21,132 nucleotides of DNA from Methanobacteriota archaeon. GTDB taxonomy: Archaea; Thermoplasmatota; Poseidoniia; Poseidoniales; Poseidoniaceae. Where the stretch lies: assembly GCA_002702945.1 (NCBI GenBank), contig PADF01000035.1, forward strand, positions 31,137-52,268, given 5' to 3'. The position numbers were made by a program, and so were the translations under genes. Of the stretch, positions 4,101 through 21,132 are shown piece by piece; within the stretch, counting starts at the first letter, position 1, and each line of letters starts with the position of its first letter. The notes under the pieces were generated by a model. It worked only from the letters and a program-made list of their open reading frames with translations. It was not told the DNA's origin and ran no database searches.

Positions 4101-6604
4101 ACTGTAACTAATGCTTGCGTTGCTTGTTCATCATCCCAAAGCCATGTGGTTCTCATCGGCATTGAGATTTCTAAAATCCCATCACTACCGACAAAGGATG
4201 TACAATTATTAACATCAAATAATGCAATCATTTGACTATTTGTTGAAGAAGAACAAGAATCGCCAAACTCCCAAATAAAACTTGGATTATTCCCGTTTGA
4301 ATTAATCAATTCTACAATGGTTTTAGTTACTCTTTCGACATCATCTCCTGCTGCAGCCTTGACTGTTAACATTCTTTTAATCCCATCAGGAACTGCTACA
4401 TCACCGTCAAAATAAACACCAATTGCTCTAGTCTTCATATTATATTCAACATCCAAATCAGTGACTTTAATTCGGCCAGGTGACTCAGCTTTGAATGATA
4501 AGAAAATTGTATCATCGCCTTCGCCGTTAGCTGAAATCTCTTGATTAATTGCAGAGACTAATGTTGGAGAGTTTAACACCTCGGTTCCAACAATAGAGGA
4601 ATCACTGACAGAGATACTGGATTCATTTAGAAACTGTAATGACTCCCAATCCCAATCTCCAATTCCGTTAATATTAATCGATGGCATATCTGGATAACCT
4701 TCTTCATACCACAGTCTAAATAATTCAACAGATGGAGATAAATCTCTACTTTGAGAATTCATAGTAATCTCGAACCTTAAGGAATTTCCTGCATTTAGAG
4801 ATGGGAAACTTACCTCTTGATTATTTTGCGCTGTCAACCAATTAGTACCATTATCATTGGAAACCCTCACTTCAACAGTTGTACCTAAGGGGTTATTTTC
4901 AACCCATTCAGGCCTAACTTTCCCTACATTCGTCCCAGTTTGAAAATAATCAGAAACCCAAGCCCCATTAGAAGAATAGGATGTATAATAATCAATATTC
5001 ACCCACCAAGAAACGGCTGAAGAACCAATCAATTGTGCCTTCCAGATCAACTGATTTCCCGGATATGAAAAGTGAATTGTTGATAGCGAAGTAACTGATT
5101 CCCAATGGGTTCCATTGTCCGCAGATACCCAGTAATCAACTCTATCTCCAATTGTTGGCGCATCCCAATATGTCTCCATATTGACTGAAAGTACTGGTTT
5201 TGAAGTGTAAATTGTATCCCCATACCAAGTAGTTGTTCCAGGCGCTGGGATTGTTTCATAACTCCAACCTGTTCCATATTCTCGATAATTGAGAGTTACA
5301 GATGAGAATGAAGAATAACTACAATCAACAGTGATGAATCTCTTTCCATCAAACTGTAATCCATATCCTAAAACATTAATCTGTTTTGTATTGGACTGGG
5401 GAACAAGTGTTTCAGAAGCACCAGAGATTTTCCAAGCCTCCAATACATCCTTATTTTGACTTCCTGAACTACCTTTTTGACAACGCATAAAAAATGTAGA
5501 CTCGCTAACTTCTAAACCTCTTACTTGTTGACCAGTTTTTCCACATTCATATGAGGAACCAGAAGATGAAAAATAAGTATAAATTGTCGACCCTCGAGTA
5601 TATGAGCCAGTCTGCATTTCATCAAATTCATAGGAAACTATTCGTCTTTGAGAATTATGTAAAACCCATACCACATCTCTTGATGCATCATATGCAATAC
5701 CTGTATAATCATTATATTGAGGGGATATATCATAGGAATCTAAGCAAGTCCAAACATCGTCTTTGGATATATCAAATTCTAGGACTCTGTGATTAGCTGC
5801 TGGTGCAGAAGATGAATAGTGATAACGGTAAGTAGATAGTATTCCAAAAAGTCTCTCATCATCTGTTACTGTCCAATCCCTAAAGCCATAATATGAGTAA
5901 TAACTAGAAGAAGGTTGTTGAGGCAATGTACAAGAGGCTTGTTCTAAAAGAATTGTTGATTCGACAGTTGCATTATTTGGATATAATCTCTTTACCACAT
6001 TACTAAATTGCTTAGAAGACCATGTAGATAAAAATAACCAATCATGATGTTTTAGTATTGCACCTTGGCTCTGAGCTATTAATGCGGATGATGATTTCTG
6101 AACTTGCATAGAAAACAAATTTTCACTAGCATTCGAGGTATGAGGTTGCCTTACCGAGAAGGTACCATTATCATACCAAGCATCAGATTCCTCACTAATA
6201 TTTTCATCTAGAGAATGAGTGATGTAAGAATTATTGTTCTCAGTTGGAGAAAGTGTCAATGTATCACTTCTTGAATCTGTCATAGCAGCAGAACCTTCCA
6301 TCCAATCACTTCTTGTCTCAACTATTTTGCTAGACCAACCAGTTGCTGATGCACCAGATAGAGTCATAGAAATATCACTAACTTCAGCACCCTTCGGTAT
6401 TGAAATTTCAGCTCCATCATCTGTTCTACCATTTTGATAAAGAGCAATATATTCAGTTGAACCATCGCTAAACTGATAGATGTGTCTTGAGACACTACTG
6501 GCTGATGCATCTTCAACAAACAAATCTGAAATAGGAGTCATTGGCGTAAAAGCCATCAAGAATGCAAGGAAGATTGCAATCCCAAAAGTTGAATTTTTAC
6601 GCAT
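1178..6604 (-). CDS. Giant single-pass cell-surface protein with beta-propeller-like and Ig-like domains
   Basis: 1808 residues. Signal peptide at residues 1-35 (MRKNSTFGIAIFLAFLMAF, cleavage probably near ASA). Residues about 180-450 are Tyr/Ser-rich and look propeller-like (repeated short beta strands such as RVLEFDISKDDVW and VVWVLHNSQRRIVSYEF). Two related modules follow with VSADNGTHW and VSNDNGTNW (about residues 490-640). The rest to about 1660 is a chain of beta-sandwich/Ig-like segments with many N-glycosylation sequons. One membrane helix lies at about 1680-1703 (LFLIALVSLSFGLWMLVV) followed by RR, so the C-terminal ~100 residues are inside: a Gln/Thr/Pro-rich linker and a terminal Trp-rich motif GLPAGWTMEQWEHFGWKYI. 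ATG 6604 has AGGTGA 6 nt upstream. It is 44 nt downstream of the TSP3-rod gene and abuts the next gene, so the three are probably co-transcribed. Likely an envelope protein or adhesin/receptor; exact ligand unknown. Confidence 0.85.
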   Translation of the reverse strand: MRKNSTFGIAIFLAFLMAFTPMTPISDLFVEDASASSVSRHIYQFSDGSTEYIALYQNGRTDDGAEISIPKGAEVSDISMTLSGASATGWSSKIVETRSDWMEGSAAMTDSRSDTLTLSPTENNNSYITHSLDENISEESDAWYDNGTFSVRQPHTSNASENLFSMQVQKSSSALIAQSQGAILKHHDWLFLSTWSSKQFSNVVKRLYPNNATVESTILLEQASCTLPQQPSSSYYSYYGFRDWTVTDDERLFGILSTYRYHYSSSAPAANHRVLEFDISKDDVWTCLDSYDISPQYNDYTGIAYDASRDVVWVLHNSQRRIVSYEFDEMQTGSYTRGSTIYTYFSSSGSSYECGKTGQQVRGLEVSESTFFMRCQKGSSGSQNKDVLEAWKISGASETLVPQSNTKQINVLGYGLQFDGKRFITVDCSYSSFSSVTLNYREYGTGWSYETIPAPGTTTWYGDTIYTSKPVLSVNMETYWDAPTIGDRVDYWVSADNGTHWESVTSLSTIHFSYPGNQLIWKAQLIGSSAVSWWVNIDYYTSYSSNGAWVSDYFQTGTNVGKVRPEWVENNPLGTTVEVRVSNDNGTNWLTAQNNQEVSFPSLNAGNSLRFEITMNSQSRDLSPSVELFRLWYEEGYPDMPSININGIGDWDWESLQFLNESSISVSDSSIVGTEVLNSPTLVSAINQEISANGEGDDTIFLSFKAESPGRIKVTDLDVEYNMKTRAIGVYFDGDVAVPDGIKRMLTVKAAAGDDVERVTKTIVELINSNGNNPSFIWEFGDSCSSSTNSQMIALFDVNNCTSFVGSDGILEISMPMRTTWLWDDEQATQALVTVEDETGIAVPSWQTDSMDLKVENDIQLNGMNVFDENGRQLTNFEWLRGGTNISFTGMINFEGSQLTPLPGQFLLRVVGQNVSNSGQPVGDEVILIESQNPGFGNYNLTFQTPMESTPGGMVFYVQAVNLVNGSEFVNPSYNNIRLILDGNSPLVISVSPNNGDELHASLPAPAGQPISLTIQDSVDPPTLVTLHYWLGCRSTVNTACNDYNFDNLPNQDEYQTKTLSSPEIKTGGMNIFQGLIDDSMLTHGQKVSFYVSGSDGQNNLIAMGGGPVCPQSTIPCDGTSNGATPDWSNDLSTYVIREEFIPEFDSSNSSLIGHSDEQPLHPGVPYTAQIAITDGNGWDDIQSVQISLDGSLSDLSTSIFVTIDSDQEEPKIHVESSSPFIAVSNIYSSFEFGNLEQTKIIFSIKFQLTWQFPESYDTDGEIFFLPQISVSDKSCSIDLEVPCNVENFVLSNNAWSLDNDFRFDTMPGHITAVQLRNGMNHYNVDFDETSIGVGQALRLDGRVLFSEDETPAPAGIFDIQIIDYDNQWQTSIREDGYFSMDFLVPASPSGHLDFSLVMSDMPGLSSDETEETPRLRLAVDSESPEIVSVKLDNVLSGGEVAISKLNQASLLVETYDYYGFGSSEIIVHYRIRAGESEISRGSMNIDSYIIFDGKFFWTGDIDFTDFGATNLLPTYQVDIWFTGSDSAGNSFDSNINSPTNPFGTWDLALIGPNIEFSHNQTLIKWSDPSPNIGDELSLNIQALNQGSKGNVTFILESLDSSNNWFEVSNLSIIVNPESIFYSSMNYNVLDTDSGTIEFRILVYLGDVEMDRITIEPLLVKEEVIRDGEALAKQAGDELFGVTLFLIALVSLSFGLWMLVVSRRMKLESQISDDPADQTVEVEQQEFETKQFPSIETQQTTQMIPQALPNPSLMAPLPTTTTIPQASILTTENNKPNIAPLPPTGLPAGWTMEQWEHFGWKYIEALTK
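4700..5145 (-). repeat. Tandem pair of related extracellular modules in the 1808-aa protein
   Basis: Two consecutive segments share the pattern VSxDNGTxW, then about 12-15 residues, then F-S/P-x-GN-x-L, and a following strand with SS/QSRDLS. The first is encoded near 4975-5140 and the second near 4700-4880. Protein-level similarity only; the DNA has diverged. Confidence 0.5.
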
Positions 6605-6648: not shown

Positions 6649-9600
6649 CTAACCCGTCTGTCTAGAGTCATATCGGAGTGGTGATGAATCGCCTCTAACA
6701 CCATCTTCCTCGTCATCAAATACTTCAAACCAGTCTACTATCCAATCGCCATCTGTATCCCAATGCATTGGGTTAGTACCTTCAGCGATATGATCATCGT
6801 CTAAATCAAGAGCATACCAACCATATTCATGTTCGCCAACAATTCTGACTGGAGCCGTTTGAGGTGAACTGGTGTAGTATATTTCCCATTGATCTGTCCA
6901 AGCTCCTGATGTAGTGATTATGTCATCAGCATTATTTAAAATCAGGAAATCAACATCTTGATCGTCAACAATCAAAACATATCGGAAATCTATTGAGGAT
7001 TGCTTATCCATCTTTAGATAATTCTGAGTTGCTTCATTACTCGTACCTAGTCCTAACAGGAATCCTCTGAATTGCCACCACTCTTCTACCGGTTGTCCTT
7101 GATAGACCAATGGACTCAAACGAACCGCATTAGGTGAAGTCAAATCAATATCGGAAATAGTAAAGAATTCCTGGAAATTAGTATAAGGCGTGTATGAACA
7201 TCCTGCACCTGAACAATCCCAATTCCCATCCATATCTGGATCTAAGTTAGCATCTACTGCATTAGCCGGATCTAAAGTGAACCAAGTATATTCTAAATCA
7301 GGTCTTGAAAGGACTCCGTTACTAAAAGATAGTGGGAGGCATGAAGTGGTTGAAGTATCACAATCCGAGCCTGTTTCACCATCTATCCATTGCACTTTTA
7401 TCTGAAGCCAGGAACTGAAATTATCATTTGATTCATTCCACCCATGAGCATATTCATACCAATCAGGTAACATGTCACCATCAGTATCATTATCCATTGG
7501 ATTTATTCCATATTTGAACACTTCACGGCCGTCTGATAGATTGTAATCAATTTGATGTGAAATAACTTGATTTCCAGATAATACGGTATTGAATGTTACT
7601 GAATCTCCATCGGAATCATTTAGATCTGGACGTGTTTGATTATTCCATTCCATTAGATTTGTGAAAGGTAAGTCTCCTGGTCCCTGTGCAATTGAAAAAG
7701 AATATGGGGTGAAAACTCTATTATTCCATTCTCCTTGTTGTGCAGGAATATCGAAAGGAATTCCAGCATCCGGATTGGTAATACTATTTCTATCATACCA
7801 GCCATCATGGTCACCATCGTAAGAGACATCGAATGGATTGAGTGGGTTTGCTGCCCATCGGTCTTCCGTAGTTATATCGGGCATTCCATAAATTGCATAA
7901 CAGTATTCCCAACCATCCGGAATTGTATCTCCGTCAGAATCAGTACTGGTAGGATCTGCAACACCGATCAAAGTTCGGTTGAAGTTATCAGGATCTTGTT
8001 CGTTTATTTTCTGCATTCGATTGAAACTTTCTTGGTCTTTTTCAATGAAGTCTGTATAAACACCATTCTGCGCTTGGAAGTAGTTGTAACCCATCTCTTC
8101 CATGTAAGCATCAATAGCATCATCTCCAAAACTGTAGATTCCAACGTCTTGAGGAACATTAGTTCGTTCAGAATATTTACCCCATGTCCTAGATTCCCAT
8201 TCTCTTAAGTTAGAGAATCGTTCTTCAGAAGAGATAACTCCATCGCCGTCACAATCAAAACTGTCTCCATCGGAATCTAGATCAACATCACCATCAATCA
8301 ATGGATTTATTCCCCACAAATTTTCTTCCAAATTCCATTCAGCAAACCAATATTCGAATCCATCGGACATACCATCGCCGTCAGTATCAGGGTTGGTAGG
8401 ATCAGTTATGCCCATAATAACTGAAATGAATATATTTGCTGGTTCTCCATTTTGCCAGTCATTGAAATCATCTAACAGCCTCTTACCTCTGGTATCTTTT
8501 GTTATTAGAATATTGAATATTCTTTGTGTTTTTTCAGTAGGCTGAAGTAAATCTCCATCTATGTGCATCAATGGAGCATCTTCTGGATGATCAATGCCAT
8601 TATCGGGACTTGAAAATGCCAATGCGAATTCTTGCAAGTCATTAATTCCATCTTCATCAGAATCGAAATATCCATCATCAGCAACAAGAGGATTTAGAGT
8701 CCATTTTTGTGCAGAAATATTCCACTGGGTAAATAGTAGTTCTAAACCATCAATAATTCCATCACCGTCTGTATCAATATTATTTGGGTCAGCTGTTCTT
8801 CCCGTCAAATTGATCTGAGTATCATTAATGAATGAGCCAAATGATGTATCGGTAAGTACTCCTGCCCATGCTTGGAATGCATAAGCACTACCGATTGTTG
8901 TAACAAACCATTTTGGCGAAGTTCTATTTTTATCAGTCTCAGAATAATCTGGAGAAATTGAATTATACTCTTCCCAATTAGTCATTCCATCATCATCAGC
9001 ATCTTCCCATCGATCACTCGGTTGAAGTGGATTCAATGTCCAATCATCATCTAGTAAATTCCATCTTGCAAACCAGATTTCCCATCCGTCTGGCATTCCA
9101 TCATCATCAGTGTCGGTATCCAATGGATCGCAGGAGCCTGAACTAATTTTCAACTGAGACGAAAGTATAGATCCTGCGGCTCTATCAGCAAAAGTTGCTT
9201 GAGGGACACCAAGGAAACTAATATTTTCAAAAAGGTCAGTAGTGAATCCACCTGGTAAACTAACACCATCAAAAGTCTCATTGAAATTAAATAAATCTGT
9301 TCTAACATGGAATTCTAGCCAATTAACAAATGCCTCATTCTGTTGAATTTCACCATCGTGATTTATGTCATAACCATCACCGTCTGGATTCTTAAAAGCA
9401 TCAGAACCATTTAACGGATTAATACCTACTCTAGAAGAGTCCCATGAACAAGAATATATTGCTTCCCAGCCATCCGGTAATGAATCACCATCAGAATCAA
9501 TATTATTTGGGTCTGCAACAGTCCAGTTCTCAGCATACGATGGGGCTTCTCCATGTGATTCAAGCAGTAAACCTTCGATGGCTTGTAACCTAACTAATGA

Positions 9601-12423
9601 CCACTTGTATTCACATAAATTGAGTAATCCATCTTGGTCTGCATCCCAATTAGCGTCTTCTGGTCTATTCGGGTCTAAACTCCAGTTATTCCCGCCAGTG
9701 AAAGTAGAGCCTATCCATCTTCGATTCTCAATCTCCCACCCATCAGGCATACCATCTCCATCTGAATCATGGTTTGTAGGATCTGTACCTAAATCTACAC
9801 TTGAGACTGCTAGATAGGTTGCGTTAGCAGACTGACCTGCAGCATCATTACAGATGTATTCCATTTGTATGTTATAATGACACCACAAATTGGAACTTTC
9901 ATAGAAAAATCCGAAGTATTCTTCTCCATCTCCTAATCCATCTCCATCAGTATCTCCCACTTGTGGATTTGTTGAATTATAACCTTCAGGAGTTATTGCT
10001 TGATACTGATATTCATCAATATTTGTCCACAATCGTTCCAAAATGCCATCACCAGACTGGTCTAAATCTATACCATCTATGTCGAAGTCAAGAAGTGAAT
10101 CCCATGGGTCTGTTGGGTCCATGCCATTACCTAATTCCCAACCATCTGGAATTCCATCGCCATCCGAATCATTTGATCCGGGATCCATTAATTGAAGGTT
10201 GGAATATTGTCCAGGAGTTGAAGAACCAAATACAGTCTTATTTCCATTAACATACATTACACCTAATTCAGTAATTTGGCCAGGGATGGATTCATCCTGT
10301 AAAATTTGATACACATTTGAATAATCACCGGATAAAGTCCAAGTTCCATGAATCGAGCCAACAATTATTTCTTCTCCAGTAGAATATATTGAATGAATAT
10401 CATTCAATTCACGTGCAGGAACTGTATCTGAGCCTGGGTTTTCTAATAATCCGCTGTGAATAATAACATTATCATTTAATTTAAGTTGATGTAATCCAGA
10501 AGGTGTGCCAAACCACAATATTTGAGGTGTTGAGGGGGTTGGGCCATCCAAAAGAATTTGCCTAATTGCTGCAGGATTTGATGTAGAACCAGCTGGAAGC
10601 GACCTAATTTCACTGATAGAATTCTCGATACTGGTATTTTCAATAGAGAAAAATACTCTCCATTCAGGAGTTGTTACATCTCTAGCAGAGTCTGTTTTGA
10701 CTATCATTAAACCGACATTTGTACCTACAAATAGCGTCAATTCCCCATCCATGAGCCCATGTTCAACGTCAGTAACTGAAGCATTAGCCTGTTGAAGGGA
10801 ATTAGTTATCGATTCACTAATGGAGTGAGTCACAACTATGCTGCCTGTATTACTAATTTCGAAAATATGTCCTGAACCATTATCTCCTAAACCTAAAATA
10901 TGTTCATTGGAACTGGAAATCTGTAATGAAGTGATTGAATGTATTTCATCAGAATATGACCAGTCCCAAGTACTCAAAGAATCCGGAAACCCATCAACCT
11001 GAATTCTAGCAACTCCTAAACCGATATCTGATGCAAGTGAAATTGCATAAAGTTGGTCGCCATCAAAAATTAATTTTGAGTCATGCAATTCTACACCTTG
11101 CGGCATCCAAATATCTTCACTAGTCATTGTCTGGAAATCCAGAATTGTCAGGCCGTATTTTGTTGTTACATATACAATTGATTCTACAACTTCGATACTT
11201 CTAACATCGTGATGAATAATACTGTAGTCTTCATTTGGGTTGGCGAATGTGATAGGATAATGCTCTAGAGATGATTCACTAACAGTTCCGATAGCAACCG
11301 ATTTTAGTCCTGCCATGACATTATTTCCATCATCATCATAGATTAGATACTCTTGAAGATTAGATAATTGTTCACCCAATTCCAATGCAGTCGGAGTCCT
11401 ACTTACATCAGGCGATAAGACTCCGTCTCGATTAGCATCCCAGCCATCATTATCACCATCGAATAATGCACTACTTCTGTTTAGTGGGTCCAAGCCAAAA
11501 TGAACTTCCCATCCATCCGGTATTCCATCTCCAAATGAAGGATAAGTATTTCTTAATACAAATCCATCCCAATTGTAGCGATCTGAATCTTCTAGTAGTG
11601 GGTCTGTACCAAGCCACATATCTTCACCAATCTCACTTGTCGAGTTAGTAGCGCAGGCTGAAATCAAATTTTGGAATGTAGCATTAGCACCTGTTGGTAT
11701 GTATGGCCAATTTGTCAAAATTGAACCATCAGGTGGAGTGCCGATACACCATAAGCCATCTAATTCATTTGTATGATTATGAGGAGCTCCATACAGGTAC
11801 TCTTCTGACGAGGTATAGAGTTCAGTAGTCGAAAGAATACCATCTCTATTAACATCAAATCCGTCATTATCAGGATCTTCATTCATGTCTGTTGCATTTA
11901 GTGGATCGAAATCTCTGCATTTAAATTTCTGAGAAGACGAATCGAAACCACCGATTCTAAGGCACATGTAGGCCTCGAAACCATCAGGCATTCCATCTCC
12001 ATCCGTATCAGATTTTCGAGGGTCAAGATAACTTCTCACTCCTTCTCCATCAACAACTCCTGTTAAACCCCTAAAGAAACCAGGGTCAGTACAACTAGCA
12101 GGATACGGCCAGCAATATTCTTCTGTGGCATTCAATCCATCTTTATCGTTATCTTCAGTAGCATCTCCTGAGAAATTTTTGTCCATTCCAGGCATCGATA
12201 CACTTCTTCCATCAACTGCAGTGAAGTTTATGTCTTCCCTAAAGAGATCTTCATGTAAATTTGGAATACCATCACCATCGGCATCTGTGAGAGGTGGTTC
12301 CTCGAAATTTGTCGTATCTGGGTGGACGTTTGTAACTGGGGAAATAACTGGGAATTGTGACATAAATAGTAAACTAACTACTACGGCAACTGTGGTCAAC
12401 AAGGTTGATTGGCTTCTACGCAT
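6649..12423 (-). CDS. Giant secreted protein of TSP3-like acidic repeats with an internal propeller-like domain
   Basis: 1924 residues from ATG 12423 (an in-frame TTG at 12441 would add six). Signal peptide: MRRSQSTLLTTVAVVVSLLFM, then PVISPVTN. The body holds at least twenty calcium-loop motifs of the type DxDGDGxPDGWE, as in thrombospondin type 3 and related bacterial/archaeal rods: residues about 45-380 (e.g. DADGDGIPNLHEDLF, DTDGDGMPDGFEAYM) and about 750-1900 (e.g. DSDGDGIPDGWELGNGMDP). Between them, about 400-700, is a beta-rich region without acidic loops (VYVTTKYGLTILDF, LFVGTNVGLMIV, ILWFGTPSGLHQLKL, IIVGSIHGTWTLSGDY), resembling a seven-blade-type propeller. No C-terminal membrane helix, so attachment is probably non-covalent or through a partner, the 1808-aa protein being the obvious candidate. 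First gene of the minus-strand surface operon, divergent from the MBL-fold gene. Family is clear at the repeat level; the specific role (calcium-stiffened adhesin or envelope component) is inferred. Confidence 0.87.
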   Translation of the reverse strand: MRRSQSTLLTTVAVVVSLLFMSQFPVISPVTNVHPDTTNFEEPPLTDADGDGIPNLHEDLFREDINFTAVDGRSVSMPGMDKNFSGDATEDNDKDGLNATEEYCWPYPASCTDPGFFRGLTGVVDGEGVRSYLDPRKSDTDGDGMPDGFEAYMCLRIGGFDSSSQKFKCRDFDPLNATDMNEDPDNDGFDVNRDGILSTTELYTSSEEYLYGAPHNHTNELDGLWCIGTPPDGSILTNWPYIPTGANATFQNLISACATNSTSEIGEDMWLGTDPLLEDSDRYNWDGFVLRNTYPSFGDGIPDGWEVHFGLDPLNRSSALFDGDNDGWDANRDGVLSPDVSRTPTALELGEQLSNLQEYLIYDDDGNNVMAGLKSVAIGTVSESSLEHYPITFANPNEDYSIIHHDVRSIEVVESIVYVTTKYGLTILDFQTMTSEDIWMPQGVELHDSKLIFDGDQLYAISLASDIGLGVARIQVDGFPDSLSTWDWSYSDEIHSITSLQISSSNEHILGLGDNGSGHIFEISNTGSIVVTHSISESITNSLQQANASVTDVEHGLMDGELTLFVGTNVGLMIVKTDSARDVTTPEWRVFFSIENTSIENSISEIRSLPAGSTSNPAAIRQILLDGPTPSTPQILWFGTPSGLHQLKLNDNVIIHSGLLENPGSDTVPARELNDIHSIYSTGEEIIVGSIHGTWTLSGDYSNVYQILQDESIPGQITELGVMYVNGNKTVFGSSTPGQYSNLQLMDPGSNDSDGDGIPDGWELGNGMDPTDPWDSLLDFDIDGIDLDQSGDGILERLWTNIDEYQYQAITPEGYNSTNPQVGDTDGDGLGDGEEYFGFFYESSNLWCHYNIQMEYICNDAAGQSANATYLAVSSVDLGTDPTNHDSDGDGMPDGWEIENRRWIGSTFTGGNNWSLDPNRPEDANWDADQDGLLNLCEYKWSLVRLQAIEGLLLESHGEAPSYAENWTVADPNNIDSDGDSLPDGWEAIYSCSWDSSRVGINPLNGSDAFKNPDGDGYDINHDGEIQQNEAFVNWLEFHVRTDLFNFNETFDGVSLPGGFTTDLFENISFLGVPQATFADRAAGSILSSQLKISSGSCDPLDTDTDDDGMPDGWEIWFARWNLLDDDWTLNPLQPSDRWEDADDDGMTNWEEYNSISPDYSETDKNRTSPKWFVTTIGSAYAFQAWAGVLTDTSFGSFINDTQINLTGRTADPNNIDTDGDGIIDGLELLFTQWNISAQKWTLNPLVADDGYFDSDEDGINDLQEFALAFSSPDNGIDHPEDAPLMHIDGDLLQPTEKTQRIFNILITKDTRGKRLLDDFNDWQNGEPANIFISVIMGITDPTNPDTDGDGMSDGFEYWFAEWNLEENLWGINPLIDGDVDLDSDGDSFDCDGDGVISSEERFSNLREWESRTWGKYSERTNVPQDVGIYSFGDDAIDAYMEEMGYNYFQAQNGVYTDFIEKDQESFNRMQKINEQDPDNFNRTLIGVADPTSTDSDGDTIPDGWEYCYAIYGMPDITTEDRWAANPLNPFDVSYDGDHDGWYDRNSITNPDAGIPFDIPAQQGEWNNRVFTPYSFSIAQGPGDLPFTNLMEWNNQTRPDLNDSDGDSVTFNTVLSGNQVISHQIDYNLSDGREVFKYGINPMDNDTDGDMLPDWYEYAHGWNESNDNFSSWLQIKVQWIDGETGSDCDTSTTSCLPLSFSNGVLSRPDLEYTWFTLDPANAVDANLDPDMDGNWDCSGAGCSYTPYTNFQEFFTISDIDLTSPNAVRLSPLVYQGQPVEEWWQFRGFLLGLGTSNEATQNYLKMDKQSSIDFRYVLIVDDQDVDFLILNNADDIITTSGAWTDQWEIYYTSSPQTAPVRIVGEHEYGWYALDLDDDHIAEGTNPMHWDTDGDWIVDWFEVFDDEEDGVRGDSSPLRYDSRQTG
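7460..10175 (-). repeat. Long-period repeat array encoding D-x-D-G-D-G-x-P-D-G-W-E modules
   Basis: The coding signature for DTDGDGMPDGWE-like motifs, seen on the plus strand as degenerate ccatcNggNatNccatcNccatc, recurs near 7463, 7908, 8360, 8741, 9083, 9463, 9733 and 10139, i.e. every 265-445 nt. Further copies lie near 11508 and 11979, beyond the propeller-like insert. In several modules the loop is followed by FxxWNLxxxxWxLNPL and then a second loop DxDxDGxxxxxEY, so the repeating unit is larger than a calcium loop. Confidence 0.7.
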
Positions 12424-12624
12424 TTTTATTCCACACTGCAAAGTATAGGCTTCGCTATTGCAGTTGTCTTATCCTACACTTATGAGTATGATGGAACGAT
12501 GTTCCGACAATGCTCGCATTAATTTGATTATATTTGGTGCCGAATAAAAAATTAAGGTAGCAAAAATATTATTTTTTAAGAAAATATATCGGTTCATTCA
12601 AGACCTGTACGCGATGGGAGTAAT
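12424..12624. promoter_or_regulatory. Divergent promoter region between the surface operon and the plus-strand block
   Basis: About 200 nt with no convincing gene. For the plus gene, an AT-rich run with a TATA-like TTTAAGAAAATATAT at 12575-12589 is about 35-50 nt before the candidate start codons, a suitable distance for a short leader. For the minus operon several AT-rich stretches exist (for example near 12520-12570) and a TATACTTT lies close to the start at 12441-12450; none can be picked with certainty. Confidence 0.5.
12493..12505. promoter_or_regulatory. Short palindrome, possible operator
   Basis: GGAAC-GAT-GTTCC: a perfect 5-bp inverted repeat with a 3-nt spacer, located about 70 nt upstream of the surface-operon start and within the divergent promoter region. 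Size fits a dimeric regulator half-site pair, but a match of this length can arise by chance. Confidence 0.25.
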
Positions 12625-13440
12625 TTGACCGCTATGACGATGCGCATCACTCATCTTGGAACTGGAAGTCGCGGTAATTCGACACTTCTAGAAGTTGGCG
12701 ATGTTAGAGTTCTTTTGGACCAAGGATTCAGTGGCGCTCAATTGGAGAAAAGACTCAATCGAATGAAACTCAAACCTGAGGATGTTGATTGCATATTAGT
12801 TAGTCATCATCACGGAGATCATGGAGGGGGTGTAGCCATTGCTCAGCGAAAATGGAAAATCCCAGTTTTAGCAAATGAGAGAACAGCGATGGAGCTTAAT
12901 CTAGACCCTATGTTAACCAACTACTTTGGTTCATTAGACTTGGTTCGAGTGGGAGATGATCTATCAATTTTGACTGTCCCCGTCCCGCATAGCGGTTCGG
13001 ATAATGTCGCATTTGTCGCAAACTATCGGGGGGAAAGAGCGGCAATAATAACCGACTTAGGCTCTTGGACTGATGAGTTGGTAAAGCATGTTCATGGTTG
13101 CCAGCATATTTCCATAGAAGCAAATTACGATGATAAATTATTGGACCAAGGCCCATATCCATTTTCTCTAAAAGAACGAATAAGAGGGCGGGGCGGCCAC
13201 CTATCGAACAAACAAACAGGGGAATTTTTAGCCGAAGTTTGTACTGAAAAAACCAGAACAATTGTCTTAACACACCTAAGTGAAAAAAATAATTCACCTC
13301 ACCTAGCTGAATCTACAATCCTATACCACATCGGAGATTTTTTCACCGGAGACATTGATATTTCACTTCAAGATGGTCCTGAAAAAACCCATTACCTAAA
13401 TTCTAGTGAATCATTAAATGAGAAATTGATTAATTTGTAA
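12625..13440 (+). CDS. WalJ/YycJ-like metallo-beta-lactamase-fold hydrolase
   Basis: 271 residues from TTG 12625, or 266 from ATG 12640 where the family-like start MRITHLGTGSRGNSTLLE begins. The metal site HxHxDH is at residues 61-66 (SHHHGDHGGG); further expected ligands are His122 (VPHSGSDN), Asp144 (IITDLG), and His192 and His217 (GHLSNKQ, LTHLSEKNN). EANYD at 165-169 and GPYPFSLKERI at 176-186 are also typical of the YycJ/VicX/WalJ group, reported as nuclease-like phosphodiesterases in bacteria. Cytoplasmic; no signal peptide. Start: GGGAG at 12616-12620 lies 4 nt before the TTG, which favours 12625, while domain alignment would allow ATG 12634 or 12640. First gene of the plus block, 67 nt before the first pilin-like gene; a functional tie with pili is not evident. 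Substrate in archaea is unknown. Confidence 0.88.
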   Translation: MTAMTMRITHLGTGSRGNSTLLEVGDVRVLLDQGFSGAQLEKRLNRMKLKPEDVDCILVSHHHGDHGGGVAIAQRKWKIPVLANERTAMELNLDPMLTNYFGSLDLVRVGDDLSILTVPVPHSGSDNVAFVANYRGERAAIITDLGSWTDELVKHVHGCQHISIEANYDDKLLDQGPYPFSLKERIRGRGGHLSNKQTGEFLAEVCTEKTRTIVLTHLSEKNNSPHLAESTILYHIGDFFTGDIDISLQDGPEKTHYLNSSESLNEKLINL

Positions 13441-13507
13441 ATGATTTGAATTATTAAGATTAGTCGAATATTACATTGATTTTGCGACTATGAAGGTCAA
13501 TACCTAA
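13441..13507 (+). promoter_or_regulatory. Intergenic leader of the pilin-like genes
   Basis: 67 AT-rich nucleotides between the hydrolase stop and the first pilin-like ATG. AAGGT near 13491-13495 is a possible ribosome binding site about 12 nt before ATG 13508. The stretch TTATTAAGATTAG (13451-13463) could be a TATA-like element, so the pilin-like cluster may have its own promoter. Confidence 0.3.
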
Positions 13508-14593
13508 ATGATACCGAATCATGAGAGTAGCGTGTCAAGTATTCGCAGGACTAGAAATCACACTAAGTTCACTACAGATGAACGTGGTGTGAGTGAGGTT
13601 TTGGGTGTAATAATGATGCTAGCAATGGTAGTTAGTATCATGGGTGGAGTTTGGGTATTTTTGAATCCGTACATCTCTGATTTTGAAGATAATACTAATT
13701 GGAATAATGCGACTGGAATAGCTGATAGATTAGAGGATCGAATAGATGTTGTTGGAGATTCACCTAATGGCACTGGAGTAAGGCATAAACTCAGTATGCA
13801 AAAATCAATCTTACAACAGGTTTCGAATGCTGAATTCTGGACAATCTCTGCTGATCTAGTTGCTTATGATGCAATTACGCTTAGAAGTGTTAGCGATTAT
13901 TCTGTAGGAATTACTTCTATGAATGAAACTGCACGTAAAATTTCAATTGAAACAATCTCACAATATTGGGAGTTAACATTCCCAGCCACCGATGGTGAGG
14001 TAATTGCTCAACATGATTTAACATTGAATAGTTGGTATATAATCACAATTTATGATAGTGAAGATTTGCCGATTCACAGAACTATATCCTATCCGATTTC
14101 GGGCTTGAAGATATTAACGACTTTAGCATCTGGAGAGCATGAAATAAACCTAGTCAATAATGCTCGGATAGAACATTTCTACGACTCATCATGGGAAATT
14201 AGTGACTATCCAAGTGTGATTTTTGAGAAGTTGGCAACACAAGGATACCGATGTTCTATTTTACTAACAAACATCGAGGTCAATGGAAGCCTAGGTGTTT
14301 CAAATTCTTATGGCTTGGATATTTTGTCATCAGGCACGATAACTCCATTTTCTGGTCAGTCATACAATCTTAGATTCTCCATGGAGAGTACCTTGGCAGC
14401 TGTAATAACTCCACAATATAACGAACTTTGGTTATCAGAATATTATCTAAATAGGGCCTCTGGAACATTAGATACTTTTTCGGGACTGGCACCTTATGAG
14501 AGGTTGAGTGGCATAGATGGAATCACAGTTGAAACAAATGGAGAACCTCTATTTTTAGATGTAAGTATTCAACAGGTGGTGATTGAGAGATGA
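13508..14593 (+). CDS. Pilin-like secreted protein with archaeal class III signal peptide (first of three)
   Basis: 361 residues. After a 27-residue positively charged leader the sequence reads DERG|VSEVLGVIMMLAMVV, which matches the archaeal type IV pilin signature: basic/polar leader, RG before the prepilin-peptidase cut, then VSxVxGVIxM and a hydrophobic helix continuing to about residue 56. The Pro usual at +3 is Glu here. The remainder is beta-rich and unrecognised, with ADRLEDRIDVVGDSPNGTGV just after the helix, an arrangement also found in haloarchaeal pilin-like proteins with a conserved 'small residues plus G-x-P' segment. The stop overlaps the next start as ATGA (14590-14593), so translation is coupled. 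Probably assembled into, or priming, a type IV pilus-like structure; no ATPase or platform gene lies in the window. Confidence 0.75.
   Translation: MIPNHESSVSSIRRTRNHTKFTTDERGVSEVLGVIMMLAMVVSIMGGVWVFLNPYISDFEDNTNWNNATGIADRLEDRIDVVGDSPNGTGVRHKLSMQKSILQQVSNAEFWTISADLVAYDAITLRSVSDYSVGITSMNETARKISIETISQYWELTFPATDGEVIAQHDLTLNSWYIITIYDSEDLPIHRTISYPISGLKILTTLASGEHEINLVNNARIEHFYDSSWEISDYPSVIFEKLATQGYRCSILLTNIEVNGSLGVSNSYGLDILSSGTITPFSGQSYNLRFSMESTLAAVITPQYNELWLSEYYLNRASGTLDTFSGLAPYERLSGIDGITVETNGEPLFLDVSIQQVVIER
14578..14583 (+). promoter_or_regulatory. Shine-Dalgarno box of the second pilin-like gene
   Basis: GGTGAT, 6 nt before ATG 14590 and inside the end of the preceding gene. Supports the ATGA-overlap start. 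Confidence 0.5.
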
Positions 14594-16563
14594 GAGTCAA
14601 CTCAAAACGAAATGAGGAGGCTGTTTCTGCTGCTGTTGCTACTGTGCTTTTATTCGGTGGTGTTGTTTCAATTATTGGTTTAATGCTAGTCTCCATGGTC
14701 CCAATTATCGAAGAATTAGAAGGTTCGATAGAAAGAAGTGATATGTCCTCGCAAATGATGATTTTGGCTCAGCAGACTGAATCTCTCAGCGAAAGTGGAA
14801 TGCCAGGAGATTCAACAAGTGTTGAATTGATTCCCATCGATGGAAATATCGATTGGGACTTGACTAGAGGTGGAATGTGGTATTCTTCAACCTGGCAAAA
14901 CGAATCTTCATTCAGAATGAAAGGTGTCATGGATTTTGACAATAGCATAGATATCAAACACCCTGAAACATTTACAACTGCAGTATGTTTTGATGATTTG
15001 CGTCTTGGACCTTCAAGGCCATTTATCTATACCGCACCAACTTGGGCAGATACTGCACAAATTGCAATCTCTACTGGTTTGGCAATACCCCTTGGACCTG
15101 TTGAAGTGAAGGTATACCAACAAGAACAATTATCTGAAACCTTAGATCTACAAATATTCGACACAGAAGTTGTCGATTTATCTATTGGTGTTTCTAAATT
15201 TGAATCTAGCCATGAATTAGTAATTTTCTATTCAAAGGGGACTGGTGGAGCTACTCTTGTTTCACCTTCTGATTCCAATCCAAAAGATAATACTGGCAGA
15301 AATTGGATAATTCCTATGGATAGTGGAGATAGTAGAATTCACATAATGAGCAAGGATTCTAATCAAATCAATATTGAAACTTCTAATGATAACAGTGATT
15401 ATTTTGCTATTTACCAAGACGAGTTTAGGGCTGGTGTTTCATTTACAAAAGAAATTACAATTAGTCAACCCGATGTTGTTAGAATCTCAACCAGTTCTGA
15501 TTCTCATTTGATTTTACAAACTGATTTAGATAATAATAGTGGATCAACATCATTATTGAGTTTTGATGGAAACTATCTGGGTAATGAGTTTATCTCGCCT
15601 TCCCTAGATGGAGAAATGCTATTCACTAATCCCGGGGAAAATAGTGTTACAGTGACGTGGAGAGGAGGTGGTACATCGATACCAGCTGCTGGAAGTACTA
15701 GTGTATCTTGGCCTCCAGCTAGTGTTGAAGGAGCACCACTTTTGGATGCTGATGGTGATATATTTGTAACTTGGAAAGTGACTAATGAAGTAAGTTCGCC
15801 AGGAGGAATTCACTTAATTGCAGCCTCTGATACTGGTGCGTCATCAGGTAAAATTCACAGATTGTTGATAGACAATGATGGTAATTCAAATTCTATTTCA
15901 ATTTCAAGGGCGGGTATTTCTAGTACATGGAATATTAGTGGCGACTCAAATATTGATGGAGAAATTAGTAATCAATTACAAAATCAAATCCAAGTTATCA
16001 ACTCTGGAAATTATGATTTCAATGTAGTTGAAGGTCACCCTGTTAAAATCCACTTAGTCAATGGAAACAATGGATTGGTTGAAGCCAAGCATGATGGAGT
16101 TGAGAGGTGTAGTGCTGTAAATATGATGGCTAGTGGTTGGATTTCCGTAGATTTGCCTTGGTTATCTCTTGCTGGCCAAGAAAATTTAGCGATTAAACAA
16201 TCATGGAAGAGTGGAGATTTTCCTTCGAGTATGAAGATTACACTGATTGGCCATAATGGAGCATCTACGCACTCCAATCTCGCAACATCTTGGGTTTTCC
16301 ATCTTTCACGTCTAACCTACTCTTTTGCCTCTTCAATAACTGGTATGGAAGTTGCCTATTCTGGTGGTGCAATTGTAACTAATCACCCTGAGTTCACTCC
16401 AACAATAATACGGGAGCCTGTAGATCGTGCGGGCCCAGGGCCACGGTTTGCTGCAACAATTCCTTCAATGCACCCTGCAACCGATGGAATAAGTGGTGGA
16501 GGTAGATTAACACTTGATATCGAATTATCTTCTAGACAAACATTAGCATCTGAGGTTGCTTAA
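14590..16563 (+). CDS. Large pilin-like protein, truncated by an in-frame TAA (second of three)
   Basis: 657 residues to TAA at 16561-16563. The N-terminus MRVNSKRNEEAVSAAVATVL followed by LFGGVVSIIGLMLVSM is a pilin-type leader plus hydrophobic helix. Residues about 50-85 (MMILAQQTESLSESGMPGDS, then TSVELIPIDG) resemble the haloarchaeal pilin-like DUF7289 layout in which a helix is followed by a G-x-P-x-x-S/T-x-E-L segment. The rest is beta-rich, Ser/Asn/Gly-rich and unrecognised, and ends ...LASEVA. Start overlaps the previous stop (ATGA) and has GGTGAT 6 nt upstream. The gene looks broken: the same frame continues 82 codons past the stop, to a TGA at 16810-16812 that overlaps the next gene's ATG, mirroring the first overlap. 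The intact product would be 740 residues. Truncation removes the C-terminal 11%, so function may be lost or retained. Confidence 0.78.
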   Translation: MRVNSKRNEEAVSAAVATVLLFGGVVSIIGLMLVSMVPIIEELEGSIERSDMSSQMMILAQQTESLSESGMPGDSTSVELIPIDGNIDWDLTRGGMWYSSTWQNESSFRMKGVMDFDNSIDIKHPETFTTAVCFDDLRLGPSRPFIYTAPTWADTAQIAISTGLAIPLGPVEVKVYQQEQLSETLDLQIFDTEVVDLSIGVSKFESSHELVIFYSKGTGGATLVSPSDSNPKDNTGRNWIIPMDSGDSRIHIMSKDSNQINIETSNDNSDYFAIYQDEFRAGVSFTKEITISQPDVVRISTSSDSHLILQTDLDNNSGSTSLLSFDGNYLGNEFISPSLDGEMLFTNPGENSVTVTWRGGGTSIPAAGSTSVSWPPASVEGAPLLDADGDIFVTWKVTNEVSSPGGIHLIAASDTGASSGKIHRLLIDNDGNSNSISISRAGISSTWNISGDSNIDGEISNQLQNQIQVINSGNYDFNVVEGHPVKIHLVNGNNGLVEAKHDGVERCSAVNMMASGWISVDLPWLSLAGQENLAIKQSWKSGDFPSSMKITLIGHNGASTHSNLATSWVFHLSRLTYSFASSITGMEVAYSGGAIVTNHPEFTPTIIREPVDRAGPGPRFAATIPSMHPATDGISGGGRLTLDIELSSRQTLASEVA

Positions 16564-16812
16564 GAAGTAAGGCGAGGCTGGGCCGAACCTTATGGTGTTG
16601 CAATCGCAAATGAGGCATCAGATGGATTAGATCTAAGTGAAGATTGGACAATTTATCCAGGAAGACTCGATTTATTGAATGACTACGTTGGATGGGTGCC
16701 GGATCCTAGTATTGGAACTTCTGAAGCTGTATGGCACACAAACGGTGAGCCGATTCAATTTTCATTACAACTATCATCATTAGATGTCCTTATGCGGGAG
16801 GCGATTGGATGA
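16564..16812 (+). pseudogene. Orphaned 3' end of the second pilin-like gene after the in-frame TAA
   Basis: 82 open codons then TGA, in exactly the frame of the upstream gene (16801-14590 is divisible by three). The translation begins EVRRGWAEPYGVAIANEASD and ends SSLDVLMREAIG, with ordinary protein-like composition (VGWVPDPSIGTSEAVW in the middle). There is no start codon with a ribosome site at its beginning, so it is unlikely to be a separate gene. A single C-to-T change from CAA (Gln) to TAA would explain the break. It still carries the GGGAG box and TGA overlap used by the next gene. Confidence 0.7.
16796..16801 (+). promoter_or_regulatory. Shine-Dalgarno box of the third pilin-like gene
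   Basis: GGGAGG, 7 nt before ATG 16809, inside the orphaned reading-frame extension. Decides ATG 16809 over the in-frame ATG 15 nt later. Confidence 0.5.
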
Positions 16813-17276
16813 GAAATACAACAATGAGTAAGGATACAAATGGTGCAGCCACTGAACTTGGCTACATCTTCACCTTCTTACTTGGAGTACTATTACTATC
16901 AATGTTCAGTATGTGGGCTTGGGATATTGAAACCGCTACAAGGGAACGATGGAATCAAGAGGCAATTCAAGCAAACATGGATGATATTGCTTCAGCGGTG
17001 GAAAGGGCCGACCAAGCTAGTAGGATGGGTGATATCGAATATTCTGAGTCAATCTATTGGCGTGCAACTGAGGCTGATGAAAATCAGTTCACTTTGACTC
17101 TTAGTAATGAATTATTATCGCTTCAAGATGGTGGCGGTACTCTAGACATGGAAGTTTCCATCTCGGGAGCCGGTAGTGGAGAACATACTGGGACAATTGA
17201 ATTATCAGGTATTAGTACAATCTGGGTAGTTCATTCAGATGGAGTTACAAGTTTACAACTGTACAGGCCTCAGTAA
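16809..17276 (+). CDS. Small pilin-like protein (third of three)
   Basis: 155 residues. The N-terminus is DTNGAATELGYIFTFLLGVL followed by LLSMFSMWAWDI, one membrane helix, then an amphipathic segment ATRERWNQEAIQANMDDIAS plus AVERADQASR, then a short beta-rich tail. This is the layout of haloarchaeal pilin-like proteins of the DUF7266 type (xGVSTTLGYVLTLG...V.EELR..G..LA..L..AD). A prepilin-type cut before AATELGY is plausible, though the residue before it is Gly preceded by Asn rather than a basic residue. The start overlaps the TGA of the broken upstream frame (ATGA) and has GGGAGG 7 nt upstream. The stop codon is immediately adjacent to the stop of the convergent STAND gene. Likely a minor pilin or membrane partner of the two larger pilin-like proteins. 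Confidence 0.75.
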   Translation: MRNTTMSKDTNGAATELGYIFTFLLGVLLLSMFSMWAWDIETATRERWNQEAIQANMDDIASAVERADQASRMGDIEYSESIYWRATEADENQFTLTLSNELLSLQDGGGTLDMEVSISGAGSGEHTGTIELSGISTIWVVHSDGVTSLQLYRPQ

Positions 17277-19832
17277 TTATATCCCCATTACTGCATTATG
17301 AACTTGTGTCTGAACTTCCCTCATTCTTGATTTTGCACCAAGTTCTCTAAAGACAGATAGAGCCCTTTGAAGATATTCCATCCTGCGAGATTTGTCTGAT
17401 GCAACTGTTCCTAAACGAGTCAATAACTCTCCAATTTGCATTCTCAAGTCATTCGCCTCAGCAATAACAAGAGCTTCACGGAAGTGTTCCATTGCTTCGT
17501 CACTTCTTCCTGCATCTTGAAGAACTTCACCGAGAAGAATGGTAATATCTACCATTGACAGAATATCTCCTTCCTCACCCATTGCCTCAAGAGCATTTGT
17601 ATAATGATGAGAAGCGACATCTAAATCGCCTACTTTGGCATGGTATCTTCCTAAAACTGCTTGAGCACGTGCATGAATTTGTTGATTCTCAGAATTATCA
17701 GACTTCTCAAAAGCATTCATAGCATGTTTTCTTGCTCGTTCGACTTCACCCAAGTCTAGGAAAGAACGGGCTAAAATCAATTGTGCTGAAATTAATTCAA
17801 TATCATCATTCTGTTCAAGAATTGTCTCTACCTCTCCGTACGATTCGAGAGCCTTGGAGCGATCATTCTTACGCCTCAAAAGGTAGCCCATATTGTTGTA
17901 ACATCTAGCAGCGCCTTGTGCGTCTCCTAACTCTATGAAATTCTTTAATGCCTCATTATGCATCGAAAGTGCATCATCAAGATTTCCTTGCTTTAGCGAA
18001 ATATCTGCTTGTGCAGAAAGTACTTCTGCCTTAATTGAAATATTCTTCAATTTCTTAGCACCGTCTTCCGCCTCTAGGAAAACAACCTTTGCCTCTTCAA
18101 AACGGCCGAGAAGTGCTAAAATTTCTCCTTGAAGTTGCTTTATCCTTGTTTTTGAATCAATTTCGACTTCTTTAAGATCTATATTTTCGATTAAACCTAG
18201 TAATTCCATGTAACCTAATGAAACAAGATTTCTACCATCCTCAACGATTATTTTTGCGGCTTCATCATTTAGATCAGAACTGATGTAATGATAAATGAGT
18301 TCGATAGTAAAACCAGGTGTTTGTTTTGCTTTTGAATACCATTCTGCACACTTAATATGGGACTCAATCTTAACTTTTTCATCTAAACTTCTAAGTAAAA
18401 ATTCTCGAATTAAATCGTGAACATCGTAAATCTCAGATTCAACCTGTCGAGCCAATCCTTGTTCAACTAATGAATCAAGTTCATCAATGTCTAGACTTTG
18501 TTCACTTAGAGCATCAATTGGGATTGGCTCTCGGTATATTGATAGTGCAGAAAGTAATCTCTTCTGTTCGCCACTTAACTTAGAAAATATTTCTACTGTG
18601 ACATAGTTTTCTAATGTTTCATGGAAAGCACCGGCTGATGCACCACGGTTGATTAATTCCAAAACAAGAGGATGTCCTCTCGAAATTCCATGGATATACA
18701 ACCACTGCTCTTCTTCAAGATTATCGAAACTACTGAGTAACTTTCTACCAGAATCTGAATCGAGTCCATCAAGTGGAAGAACTAAACTAGCAATCCTACC
18801 TTCAGCATCCTTGGCAGGAACTACCGGTTTGAAAGAACGTGAGAATAATATCAACCCAATTTCTTCCTCACTGCCCAAAAGCCCGAGAGCCATCGCTTGG
18901 AATGTCTGATGGAGAGTTGTATCAGATATTTTATGGAAATCATCGATTACAATAAGGGATGGTGAACCACCTAGAGCATCGATAAGTAGTCTTGCCGAAT
19001 CTGCTGGTTTTGGAACGGGTGTAGTAGCGATATAATCAGCAAAATTTGAGTCTCCGATATTTGCCAACCAATCTGCAATAGATTCAAAGAAAGATCTAGA
19101 ACCTTCCCAATCTTGACATCTATGATAAAACAGATTCCTTCTATGCATGAACCTTTCAATTAATTTCGAAGCCATGGTAGTTTTACCAATTCCTGCAATA
19201 CCTGGAACCATTAGAGTAGTTGCTCTTGCATCTAATAAATTACACATGTTATCAAGTTCTTTTTCTCTTCCATAAAAGTGTCTTAATCTTGGTAAATCAC
19301 CCAAGGCAGTAACAAGTTGCTTCTCAACATGCTTCGATAAATCTCTTTCAATTAAATCAGCAGAGAGCATTCTAATATCTAAAATACAATTTTCATCCAT
19401 GTACCTGATAATATCTACTGATCGCATGCTGAACGGTAGTACAGAATTAATTTCACCAAGATTAGTATTAACTATTTGACCATCTTCAAGAATACACCGC
19501 AATTGAAAATTTCTAAGTTCATTCCATGTTTCTTCAGCAATATTCATACCAGAATCTGTCAAGAAGTAGGCCTTTCTTTTACGTGACACGCCTTTTACGT
19601 GGGCTTGTCTTTCAATTAGTAATCCTTGATCTTTCAGTCCTGCAATCGCCCTAGGAACGTTTGAACGAGCAATTGCCACAGCATTAGCAATTCCCATTTG
19701 AGAAAGAGAGAAAGGAACTTCTACACTACTTTTGTAATCCGAATAATCTAACAAATGTAAGAGAATTCTCTCTTGAACGCCAGGTTTAGCATTAGTAGCT
19801 ATAGTATCACCCCGATTATTGATTGTGAACAT
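17277..19832 (-). CDS. Winged-helix / STAND NTPase / TPR protein, probable signal-responsive regulator
   Basis: 851 residues. Residues about 18-105 form a winged helix-turn-helix domain (QERILLHLLDYSDY...SNVPRAIAGLKDQGLL...KRKAYFLT). A STAND/NB-ARC-like ATPase follows: FYGREKELDNM, Walker A GIAGIGKTT at 211-219, Walker B LIVIDDF near 292, sensor LILFSRSF near 326, and the GHPL motif (RGHPLVLEL) near 385. A second winged-helix segment lies at about 420-480 (LLSALSIYREPIPIDAL...YDVHDLIREFLL). From about 495 to the end are TPR-type helical repeats (e.g. AARCYNNMGYLLRRKNDRSK, DEAMEHFREALVIAEAN). Known STAND proteins with this order switch state on ligand binding through the repeat domain; the N-terminal wHTH suggests DNA binding. 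The start ATG 19832 lies 17 nt inside the upstream surface-protein gene, so the two are coupled. A defence role is possible but nothing specific supports it. Confidence 0.88.
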   Translation of the reverse strand: MFTINNRGDTIATNAKPGVQERILLHLLDYSDYKSSVEVPFSLSQMGIANAVAIARSNVPRAIAGLKDQGLLIERQAHVKGVSRKRKAYFLTDSGMNIAEETWNELRNFQLRCILEDGQIVNTNLGEINSVLPFSMRSVDIIRYMDENCILDIRMLSADLIERDLSKHVEKQLVTALGDLPRLRHFYGREKELDNMCNLLDARATTLMVPGIAGIGKTTMASKLIERFMHRRNLFYHRCQDWEGSRSFFESIADWLANIGDSNFADYIATTPVPKPADSARLLIDALGGSPSLIVIDDFHKISDTTLHQTFQAMALGLLGSEEEIGLILFSRSFKPVVPAKDAEGRIASLVLPLDGLDSDSGRKLLSSFDNLEEEQWLYIHGISRGHPLVLELINRGASAGAFHETLENYVTVEIFSKLSGEQKRLLSALSIYREPIPIDALSEQSLDIDELDSLVEQGLARQVESEIYDVHDLIREFLLRSLDEKVKIESHIKCAEWYSKAKQTPGFTIELIYHYISSDLNDEAAKIIVEDGRNLVSLGYMELLGLIENIDLKEVEIDSKTRIKQLQGEILALLGRFEEAKVVFLEAEDGAKKLKNISIKAEVLSAQADISLKQGNLDDALSMHNEALKNFIELGDAQGAARCYNNMGYLLRRKNDRSKALESYGEVETILEQNDDIELISAQLILARSFLDLGEVERARKHAMNAFEKSDNSENQQIHARAQAVLGRYHAKVGDLDVASHHYTNALEAMGEEGDILSMVDITILLGEVLQDAGRSDEAMEHFREALVIAEANDLRMQIGELLTRLGTVASDKSRRMEYLQRALSVFRELGAKSRMREVQTQVHNAVMGI

Positions 19833-21132
19833 AATCAGGATCTGGGACCCATTGGTTCGTTTCTACGTCCCAAATCCATCCAGGATGTTGAGAACTTGTT
19901 GTCTGTTGTTGAACTTGCTGTTGAACCTGTTGGACCTGTTGGACTTGCTGGACTGGTTGTTGTGGAGTAATCTCTGGAACAGTTTTTTGTTTTGCCCACG
20001 CATATGGGTCAACATTCTGTTGTTGTTCATTAGTTTCGAAATATTCCTCTTCCAATTCGTCTTCAAAGGTAAAGAAGAATGCTCCGACTCCAACCAAAAC
20101 TGCCAATGCAACCACTATGATTATGATGATTAAAAGTAGATTAGAACTCTCGTCTTCAGCAACCATCGATAATTTAAATTCTGTATTTTGGTCATTGTTA
20201 TTGGAACTGAATAACTGTCCATCCATCTCAAATACTACAGTTCTAAAATCTGCTGACCCTAGTTGGCTTGTCGTTACAAACATTTGCCAAGTACCATCAG
20301 AAAGAACACGTGTAGAATTGATTTCTTGACCAGAGCCTGAATCAAATCTCGCTTTAACTAAACTGTTAGGTAGGCCAACTCCTGAAAAGGATGCAGGCTC
20401 AGAAGTCGTAATAACTGAATTTGTATCATCTCGAATTACTGTGAACTTAATTGCTTCAATAGTTATGTCTACTGAACGGGAAAGAGTAGATAACTCACTA
20501 TTGTCAGTAGCTTTGAATTTAACGTTTTCAAGTGACCAGCCACCTATATTGTCAGAACGAGTAGCTGATGGATTGTAAGTAGCAATACCATCTGTTGAAA
20601 TCGAGAAATATGAATCATAAAAGTTATCCAATTCGGTACTAGGATCATCATATACTTCATAAATCAAAATAGCACCTTCTGGGTCATTGAAGAATTCATT
20701 CAAATTGAATACTGCGCCTTTACCACATCTGTTCAAGTTTCTCGATTCTTCATCACAGTATACTTTGACAGTATTTGCCCACCCTGAAGGATCAAATGAT
20801 GGAGGTAAATTATCTACTGAATTATCAATTGTTATGAATACTGAAACCTCATCCGAGAAATCTTCTCCATCAAAAGAGCGCATTACAATTTCGTAAACTG
20901 AATTATGAGGTAGAGTGTTAGTCTTCCAAATGTTAGTTAAATCCCATGATGTATTGAAAATACCATTATCGATTTGATCTTGTCTAATGATAATATTTGT
21001 AGGAGAATTACCAGTTGATCTTCCTCCCTGATAAATATCAATTTCAACACGAGTTACAATTCCATCATTATCCCAAACATATCCTGATATCGAAGTTGAT
21101 TCACTTCCTCTAATCACTTCAGTATCATATAT
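19816..21132 (-). CDS. Membrane-anchored surface protein with Gln-rich linker and Trp-rich tail (partial, N-terminus beyond right edge)
   Basis: 438 visible residues; the frame is open to the window edge and begins inside a domain (IYDTEVIRGSESTSISGYVW), so the GTG at 21117 is not the true start. Extracellular part: Ig-like segment (SGYVWDNDGIVTRVEIDIYQ), then a cadherin/dystroglycan-like segment with FNLNEFFNDPEG, DDPSTEL and ATYNPSATRSDN, then another beta-sandwich ending near visible residue 320. Membrane helix about 329-352 (LLLIIIIIVVALAVLVGVGA), an acidic stretch (EDELEEEYFE), a PQQPVQQVQQ-type linker and a terminal motif HPGWIWDVETNQWVPDPDY. The topology implies a cytoplasmic tail. The stop lies 17 nt inside the downstream STAND regulator gene, pointing to co-expression and possibly a receptor/regulator pair. 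The ligand is unknown; many similar anchored Ig-like proteins exist in marine group II archaea. Confidence 0.85.
   Translation of the reverse strand: MYDTEVIRGSESTSISGYVWDNDGIVTRVEIDIYQGGRSTGNSPTNIIIRQDQIDNGIFNTSWDLTNIWKTNTLPHNSVYEIVMRSFDGEDFSDEVSVFITIDNSVDNLPPSFDPSGWANTVKVYCDEESRNLNRCGKGAVFNLNEFFNDPEGAILIYEVYDDPSTELDNFYDSYFSISTDGIATYNPSATRSDNIGGWSLENVKFKATDNSELSTLSRSVDITIEAIKFTVIRDDTNSVITTSEPASFSGVGLPNSLVKARFDSGSGQEINSTRVLSDGTWQMFVTTSQLGSADFRTVVFEMDGQLFSSNNNDQNTEFKLSMVAEDESSNLLLIIIIIVVALAVLVGVGAFFFTFEDELEEEYFETNEQQQNVDPYAWAKQKTVPEITPQQPVQQVQQVQQVQQQVQQQTTSSQHPGWIWDVETNQWVPDPDYVHNQ
19895..19965 (-). repeat. Gln-codon short repeat in the surface-protein tail
   Basis: On the minus strand a 9-nt unit GTY-CAR-CAR (Val-Gln-Gln) is repeated about five times with one or two extra CAA/CAG codons, giving QQVQQVQQVQQQVQQQ. 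Third positions vary between copies, so this is an older or selected repeat rather than a perfect microsatellite. Confidence 0.7.

Follow-up and report, generated by a model that had tools for sequence, protein, structure and literature searches.

Does the in-frame TAA that splits a large pilin-like gene of a Poseidoniales (Marine Group II) archaeon mark the natural end of that gene, form part of a programmed mechanism, or represent damage to an intact gene? The gene, here called gene B, lies in a stretch of 21,132 nucleotides (the window). An earlier note had read the gene as ancestrally ending at 16812, at an overlapping junction with the following gene, and had listed a CAA/GAA-to-TAA mutation, a polymorphism, a phase-variable off state, a sequencing error and programmed readthrough as possible explanations of the TAA. 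The features concerned are as follows.

13508-14593, + strand: gene A, 361 amino acids, with an archaellin/type IV pilin N-terminus
14590-16563, + strand: gene B as interrupted, 657 codons plus TAA; pilin-like, with a DUF7289-like N-terminus; 120 of the 120 best-listed homologues align beyond the stop
16561-16563, + strand: the apparently private in-frame TAA, a sense codon (Tyr, Phe or His) in the relatives examined
16564-16812, + strand: the C-terminal 82 codons of gene B, a conserved tail, and the ancestral TGA (16810-16812)
16796-16801, + strand: GGGAGG, Shine-Dalgarno-like, 7 bases ahead of the gene C start
16809-17276, + strand: gene C, 155 amino acids, with a hydrophobic N-terminal stretch
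12625-13440 (+), 16809-17276 (+), 17277-19832 (-) and 19816-21117 (-): window genes ending in TAA

The coordinates in the earlier note were all correct, as were its 82 open codons, its products of 657 and 740 residues, the TGA at 16810-16812 and both overlapping junctions: genes A and B share ATGA at 14590-14593, and the TGA of gene B overlaps the ATG of gene C in ATGA at 16809-16812. When the 246 bases after the TAA were shuffled with dinucleotide content preserved, 33 of 5000 shuffles stayed open. An open run of this length is thus moderately unlikely by chance, a result that is only suggestive on its own, and homology was therefore needed to call the tail coding.

We searched proteins with the 657 residues of gene B and obtained 511 matches at E 0.001, the best 120 of which were examined. 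In the alignment of all 120, the column of the TAA holds an amino acid in every protein (Tyr in 83, Phe in 33 and His in 4), and a further 82 residues follow it in 115 proteins and 81 in the remaining 5. The mean fraction of the modal residue is 0.838 in the tail vs 0.661 upstream of the stop, and the N-terminal 82 residues are conserved about as well as the tail. The nearest protein among these 120, P0001, is 740 amino acids long and differs from the gene B of the window, stop column apart, at 3 of 739 residues (121, 446 and 736).

The same pattern was found in genomic DNA. When 17 of the 120 proteins were aligned and searched against genome contigs, 144 relatives came up. Of these, 80 loci were retained; their titles name Candidatus Poseidoniales, Poseidoniaceae, Poseidonia or (uncultured) Euryarchaeota, which suggests that the window comes from this group too. 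The stop column is covered in 78 of them and is a sense codon in each of the 78 (68 Tyr, 7 Phe and 3 His), with no in-frame stop inside the matched stretches of these covering loci; the two others reach only residues 607 and 610, and neither contains a stop. Searched alone by tblastn, the extension matched 78 of the 80 loci at 62-98% identity (median 75%), the other two ending earlier. Homology settles that the extension after the TAA is coding. We also looked for the contrary pattern, in which all homologues end at the same stop and the extension is unconserved, and saw the opposite in both proteins and loci. Homologues continue through the stop column into a conserved tail, which bears out an ancestral end at 16812, and the normal gene B product is a predicted protein of 740 residues ending there. 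The suggested origin of the TAA from CAA or GAA is contradicted by the same column, which is Tyr, Phe or His in the 120 proteins and 78 loci and Gln or Glu in none examined.

Wider genome searches found gene B in 58 of 62 genomes of the nearest relative's genus and in 162 of 170 genomes of its family, sets that overlap each other and very likely also the 80 loci. An internal stop was present in 1 of the 66 matches of the genus search, and among the family matches listed at least two carry one TAA each, one of these being the genus-search match. Two loci (L101 and L102) considered as possibly sharing the stop of the window were rejected, as their TAAs sit at about residues 209 and 581. The contig with the TAA near 209 aligns only from about residue 202, and the one with the TAA near 581 contains 20 N; both stops are probably draft errors or pseudogenes in incomplete stretches. 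No related locus was found in viral contigs, whether they were searched by alignment or by an exact pattern that left the stop codon unspecified.

Comparison with the nearest locus, L001, whose protein is 86% identical to the gene B of the window, bears on the age of the change. Before the stop, the two genes differ by 133.5 non-synonymous and 306.5 synonymous changes, giving a dN/dS of about 0.05 at nearly saturated synonymous sites. The tail differs by 2 non-synonymous and 43 synonymous changes; its synonymous sites are saturated, and hence no ratio was calculated. No relaxed selection is visible in the tail, and the 2 vs 43 differences indicate that it has been under selection along almost all of the lineage of the window. 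Six other window genes were also compared with L001, those at 719-1177 and 1178-6604 being excluded. Five align end to end or nearly so, and the alignment of the 1930-amino-acid gene covers residues 4-951, at which point L001 ends. Each of the six gave a single alignment containing one gap at most, and no stop interrupts the window frames, so the window sequence is not generally damaged.

Together, these results support that the TAA is private and not programmed. It would be a sequence error or else a nonsense substitution that arose very recently in the cell or population sampled, and to this reading we assign a probability of roughly 0.93. We propose that gene B would normally encode a 740-residue pilin-like surface protein, in which a single codon reads TAA in the window sequence only. 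The two origins of the TAA are about equally likely. An error of base calling or assembly consensus, which would leave the real cell with an intact gene B, has close to an even chance: the change is an isolated single substitution within a strongly conserved gene, the near-identical P0001 is intact, and internal stops occur in relatives sporadically, at other positions, near missing sequence or N runs. Against this, the lack of frame damage in the six other genes compared with L001 indicates that the sequence is not generally poor. A real and very recent loss-of-function allele, carried by the cell that was sampled or by a population minority, we put at a little under even odds. It would fit the clean flanking frames and the tail without relaxed selection. 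However, no second copy of such an allele was seen among the best 120 of 511 proteins, clustered at 90% identity, where a truncated copy could hide in the 16-member cluster of P0001, and the codon is intact in all 78 covering loci, so the gene is rarely lost. Improbable, in our estimate, is the further idea that the TAA is a real low-frequency allele in a natural Poseidoniales population, where a virus or grazer exploits the surface protein, so that losing it would be an advantage and intact and truncated strains would coexist.

The mutation, polymorphism and sequencing error proposed in the earlier note thus stand among the explanations of the TAA, whereas its CAA/GAA origin, readthrough and phase variation are unsupported. 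Programmed readthrough giving forms of 657 and 740 residues would account for the frame staying open after the TAA and for the conserved tail, but none of the 78 covering loci and none of the 120 best-listed proteins has a stop at this column, and the RNA at 16555-16680 folds no better than its shuffles (z 0.40; 117 of 200 fold at least as well), making this account very unlikely. No Rfam family matched the window at gathering scores, and a literature search on stop-codon readthrough in marine group II archaea returned no match. Reassignment of TAA to an amino acid was rejected as well: the four other window genes ending in TAA would each reach a second stop after no more than 20 codons. Phase variation is common in genes for surface appendages, and a switch turning gene B off at the TAA codon would fit this habit. 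No repeat tract or inverted repeat was found at the codon: homopolymers of at least 4 are absent from 16501-16630, a search of 14400-17400 gave no tandem repeat near the codon, and inverted or direct repeats of at least 14 are absent from 16300-16900. We consider such a switch just as unlikely as readthrough; a weak 6-base repeat lies at 15885-15907, about 650 bases upstream of the TAA codon. Gene fission, with the tail made as a separate small protein, could use in-frame starts at 16675 (TTG), 16696 (GTG) or 16792 (ATG). However, the first 111 bases of the tail contain no in-frame ATG, GTG or TTG, so a fragment would be missing 37 or more of the 82 conserved codons, and a split is seen in 0 of 78 covering loci; we regard fission as the least credible account of all.

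If the private TAA is real, the product would lack the last 83 of its 740 residues, from a very well-conserved stretch, and would probably be non-functional, although neither structure model is confident about the C-terminal region. Gene C would probably still be translated from its own Shine-Dalgarno-like site, perhaps less efficiently, the overlapping stop-start junction no longer being reached. A Shine-Dalgarno-like tetramer, a loose motif counted without a chance control, occurs within the last 18 nucleotides in 76 of 78 loci, and the bases at the gene B stop vary among the 78 (ATGA in 46, TTGA in 13, GTGA in 11, CTGA in 5, CTAA in 2 and TTAA in 1). This site and these varied bases suggest that gene C can probably be translated to some extent even when gene B is not read to its end.

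By its relatives, gene B is a predicted pilin-like surface protein. Its N-terminus is, by eye, charged and then hydrophobic. Against DUF7289 (PF23960, cut-off 27), the 657-residue form scores 24.4, P0001 26.2 and the L001 protein 26.7, and the model matches 53 of 58 relatives at E 0.001; a literature search on DUF7289 gave no match. No solved structure matching gene B by sequence was found. An AlphaFold model of P0001, made with 58 of the 120 proteins in the alignment, has a beta-rich middle at about 110-570 that is mostly confident, and both its N-terminal helix and residues 577-740 have low confidence. A relative's C-terminal 181 residues, modelled alone with 49 of 73 distinct fragments as alignment, gave a mean pLDDT of 46.7, too poor for use. 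The C-terminal block (16270-16812 in the window, residues about 560-740) is very highly conserved, and the relative's copy has no Pfam match, while both models give the block low confidence; it may need partner proteins to fold. A fold search with the 740-residue model gave 13 matches at a threshold of E 0.001, rising to 1683 at E 10. Those listed, 50 in all, were diverse and for the most part rich in beta structure; their TM-scores were 0.05-0.19, and we did not take them as meaningful. As a separate observation, the protein encoded at 19816-21117 (- strand) contains a C-terminal GWIWDVETNQWVPDP that resembles the YVGWVPDPS motif in the gene B tail, possibly by coincidence.

Gene A carries a predicted class III-type pilin N-terminus of the archaeal type IV pilin family, with scores of 21 bits for TIGR02537 (cut-off 20) and 28.9 for PF23960 (cut-off 27); its 24.3 for PF07790, under the cut-off of 25.2, counts against pilin membership. 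Gene C matched no Pfam model above cut-off and no NCBIfam model at E 0.01. On the same strand as gene B, gene A lies upstream in 76 of 80 loci and gene C downstream in 78. Of the 80 loci, 71 have a metallo-beta-lactamase-fold gene upstream on the same strand and 76 have a downstream ATPase/TPR regulator-like gene in the opposite orientation; all four neighbours are present in 67, some loci being cut by contig ends. Across 12625-19832 of the window this order is kept: the metallo-beta-lactamase-fold gene, three pilin-like genes and the opposite-strand ATPase/TPR regulator-like gene. Elsewhere in the window, two giant proteins on the - strand (1178-6604, 1808 amino acids, and 6649-12441, 1930 amino acids) have no Pfam match at E 0.01, and the second shows, by eye, several DTDGDGMPDGWE-like repeats.

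A 2018 study proposed that an archaeal flagella operon of Poseidoniales serves adhesion, and the group lacked cultured representatives as of that year (PMC6461757). Large pilin-like proteins that may be minor pilins or adhesins are reported in a 2016 census of type IV pili in archaea (PMC4858521). The passages cited from these two articles make no mention of the three-gene cassette, and our literature searches met no described function for the gene set at 12625-19832; a search on premature stops, sequencing errors and pseudogenes in metagenome-assembled genomes, taken together, likewise gave no match. The TAA is best regarded as an ordinary feature within a conserved cassette and not as a new mechanism. 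It also calls for caution, as automatic annotation would record a 657-residue gene and drop well-conserved residues. What the analysis adds is a three-gene pilin-like cassette that is conserved in nearly all of the relatives' loci examined and poorly described and, as a by-product, a large cassette member with a conserved C-terminal block that no Pfam model matched.

Among known systems, programmed readthrough shares with this locus a conserved open frame past a stop; it differs in that the stop here is unconserved and a search for a stimulatory structure following the stop found none. A nonsense allele or sequence error in a conserved gene likewise shows a single in-frame stop, intact frames on either side and absence from the relatives examined, and as far as testable no difference was found. 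In relation to archaeal type IV pilin-like proteins (TIGR02537, PF07790 Pilin_N and PF23960 DUF7289), gene B is very large (740 residues in relatives), scores just under the DUF7289 cut-off and has a conserved C-terminal block that, in one relative's protein, lacks a Pfam match. It shares with them a charged and then hydrophobic N-terminus and, in the model, a beta-rich remainder, and it also adjoins the pilin-like gene A with overlapping ends.
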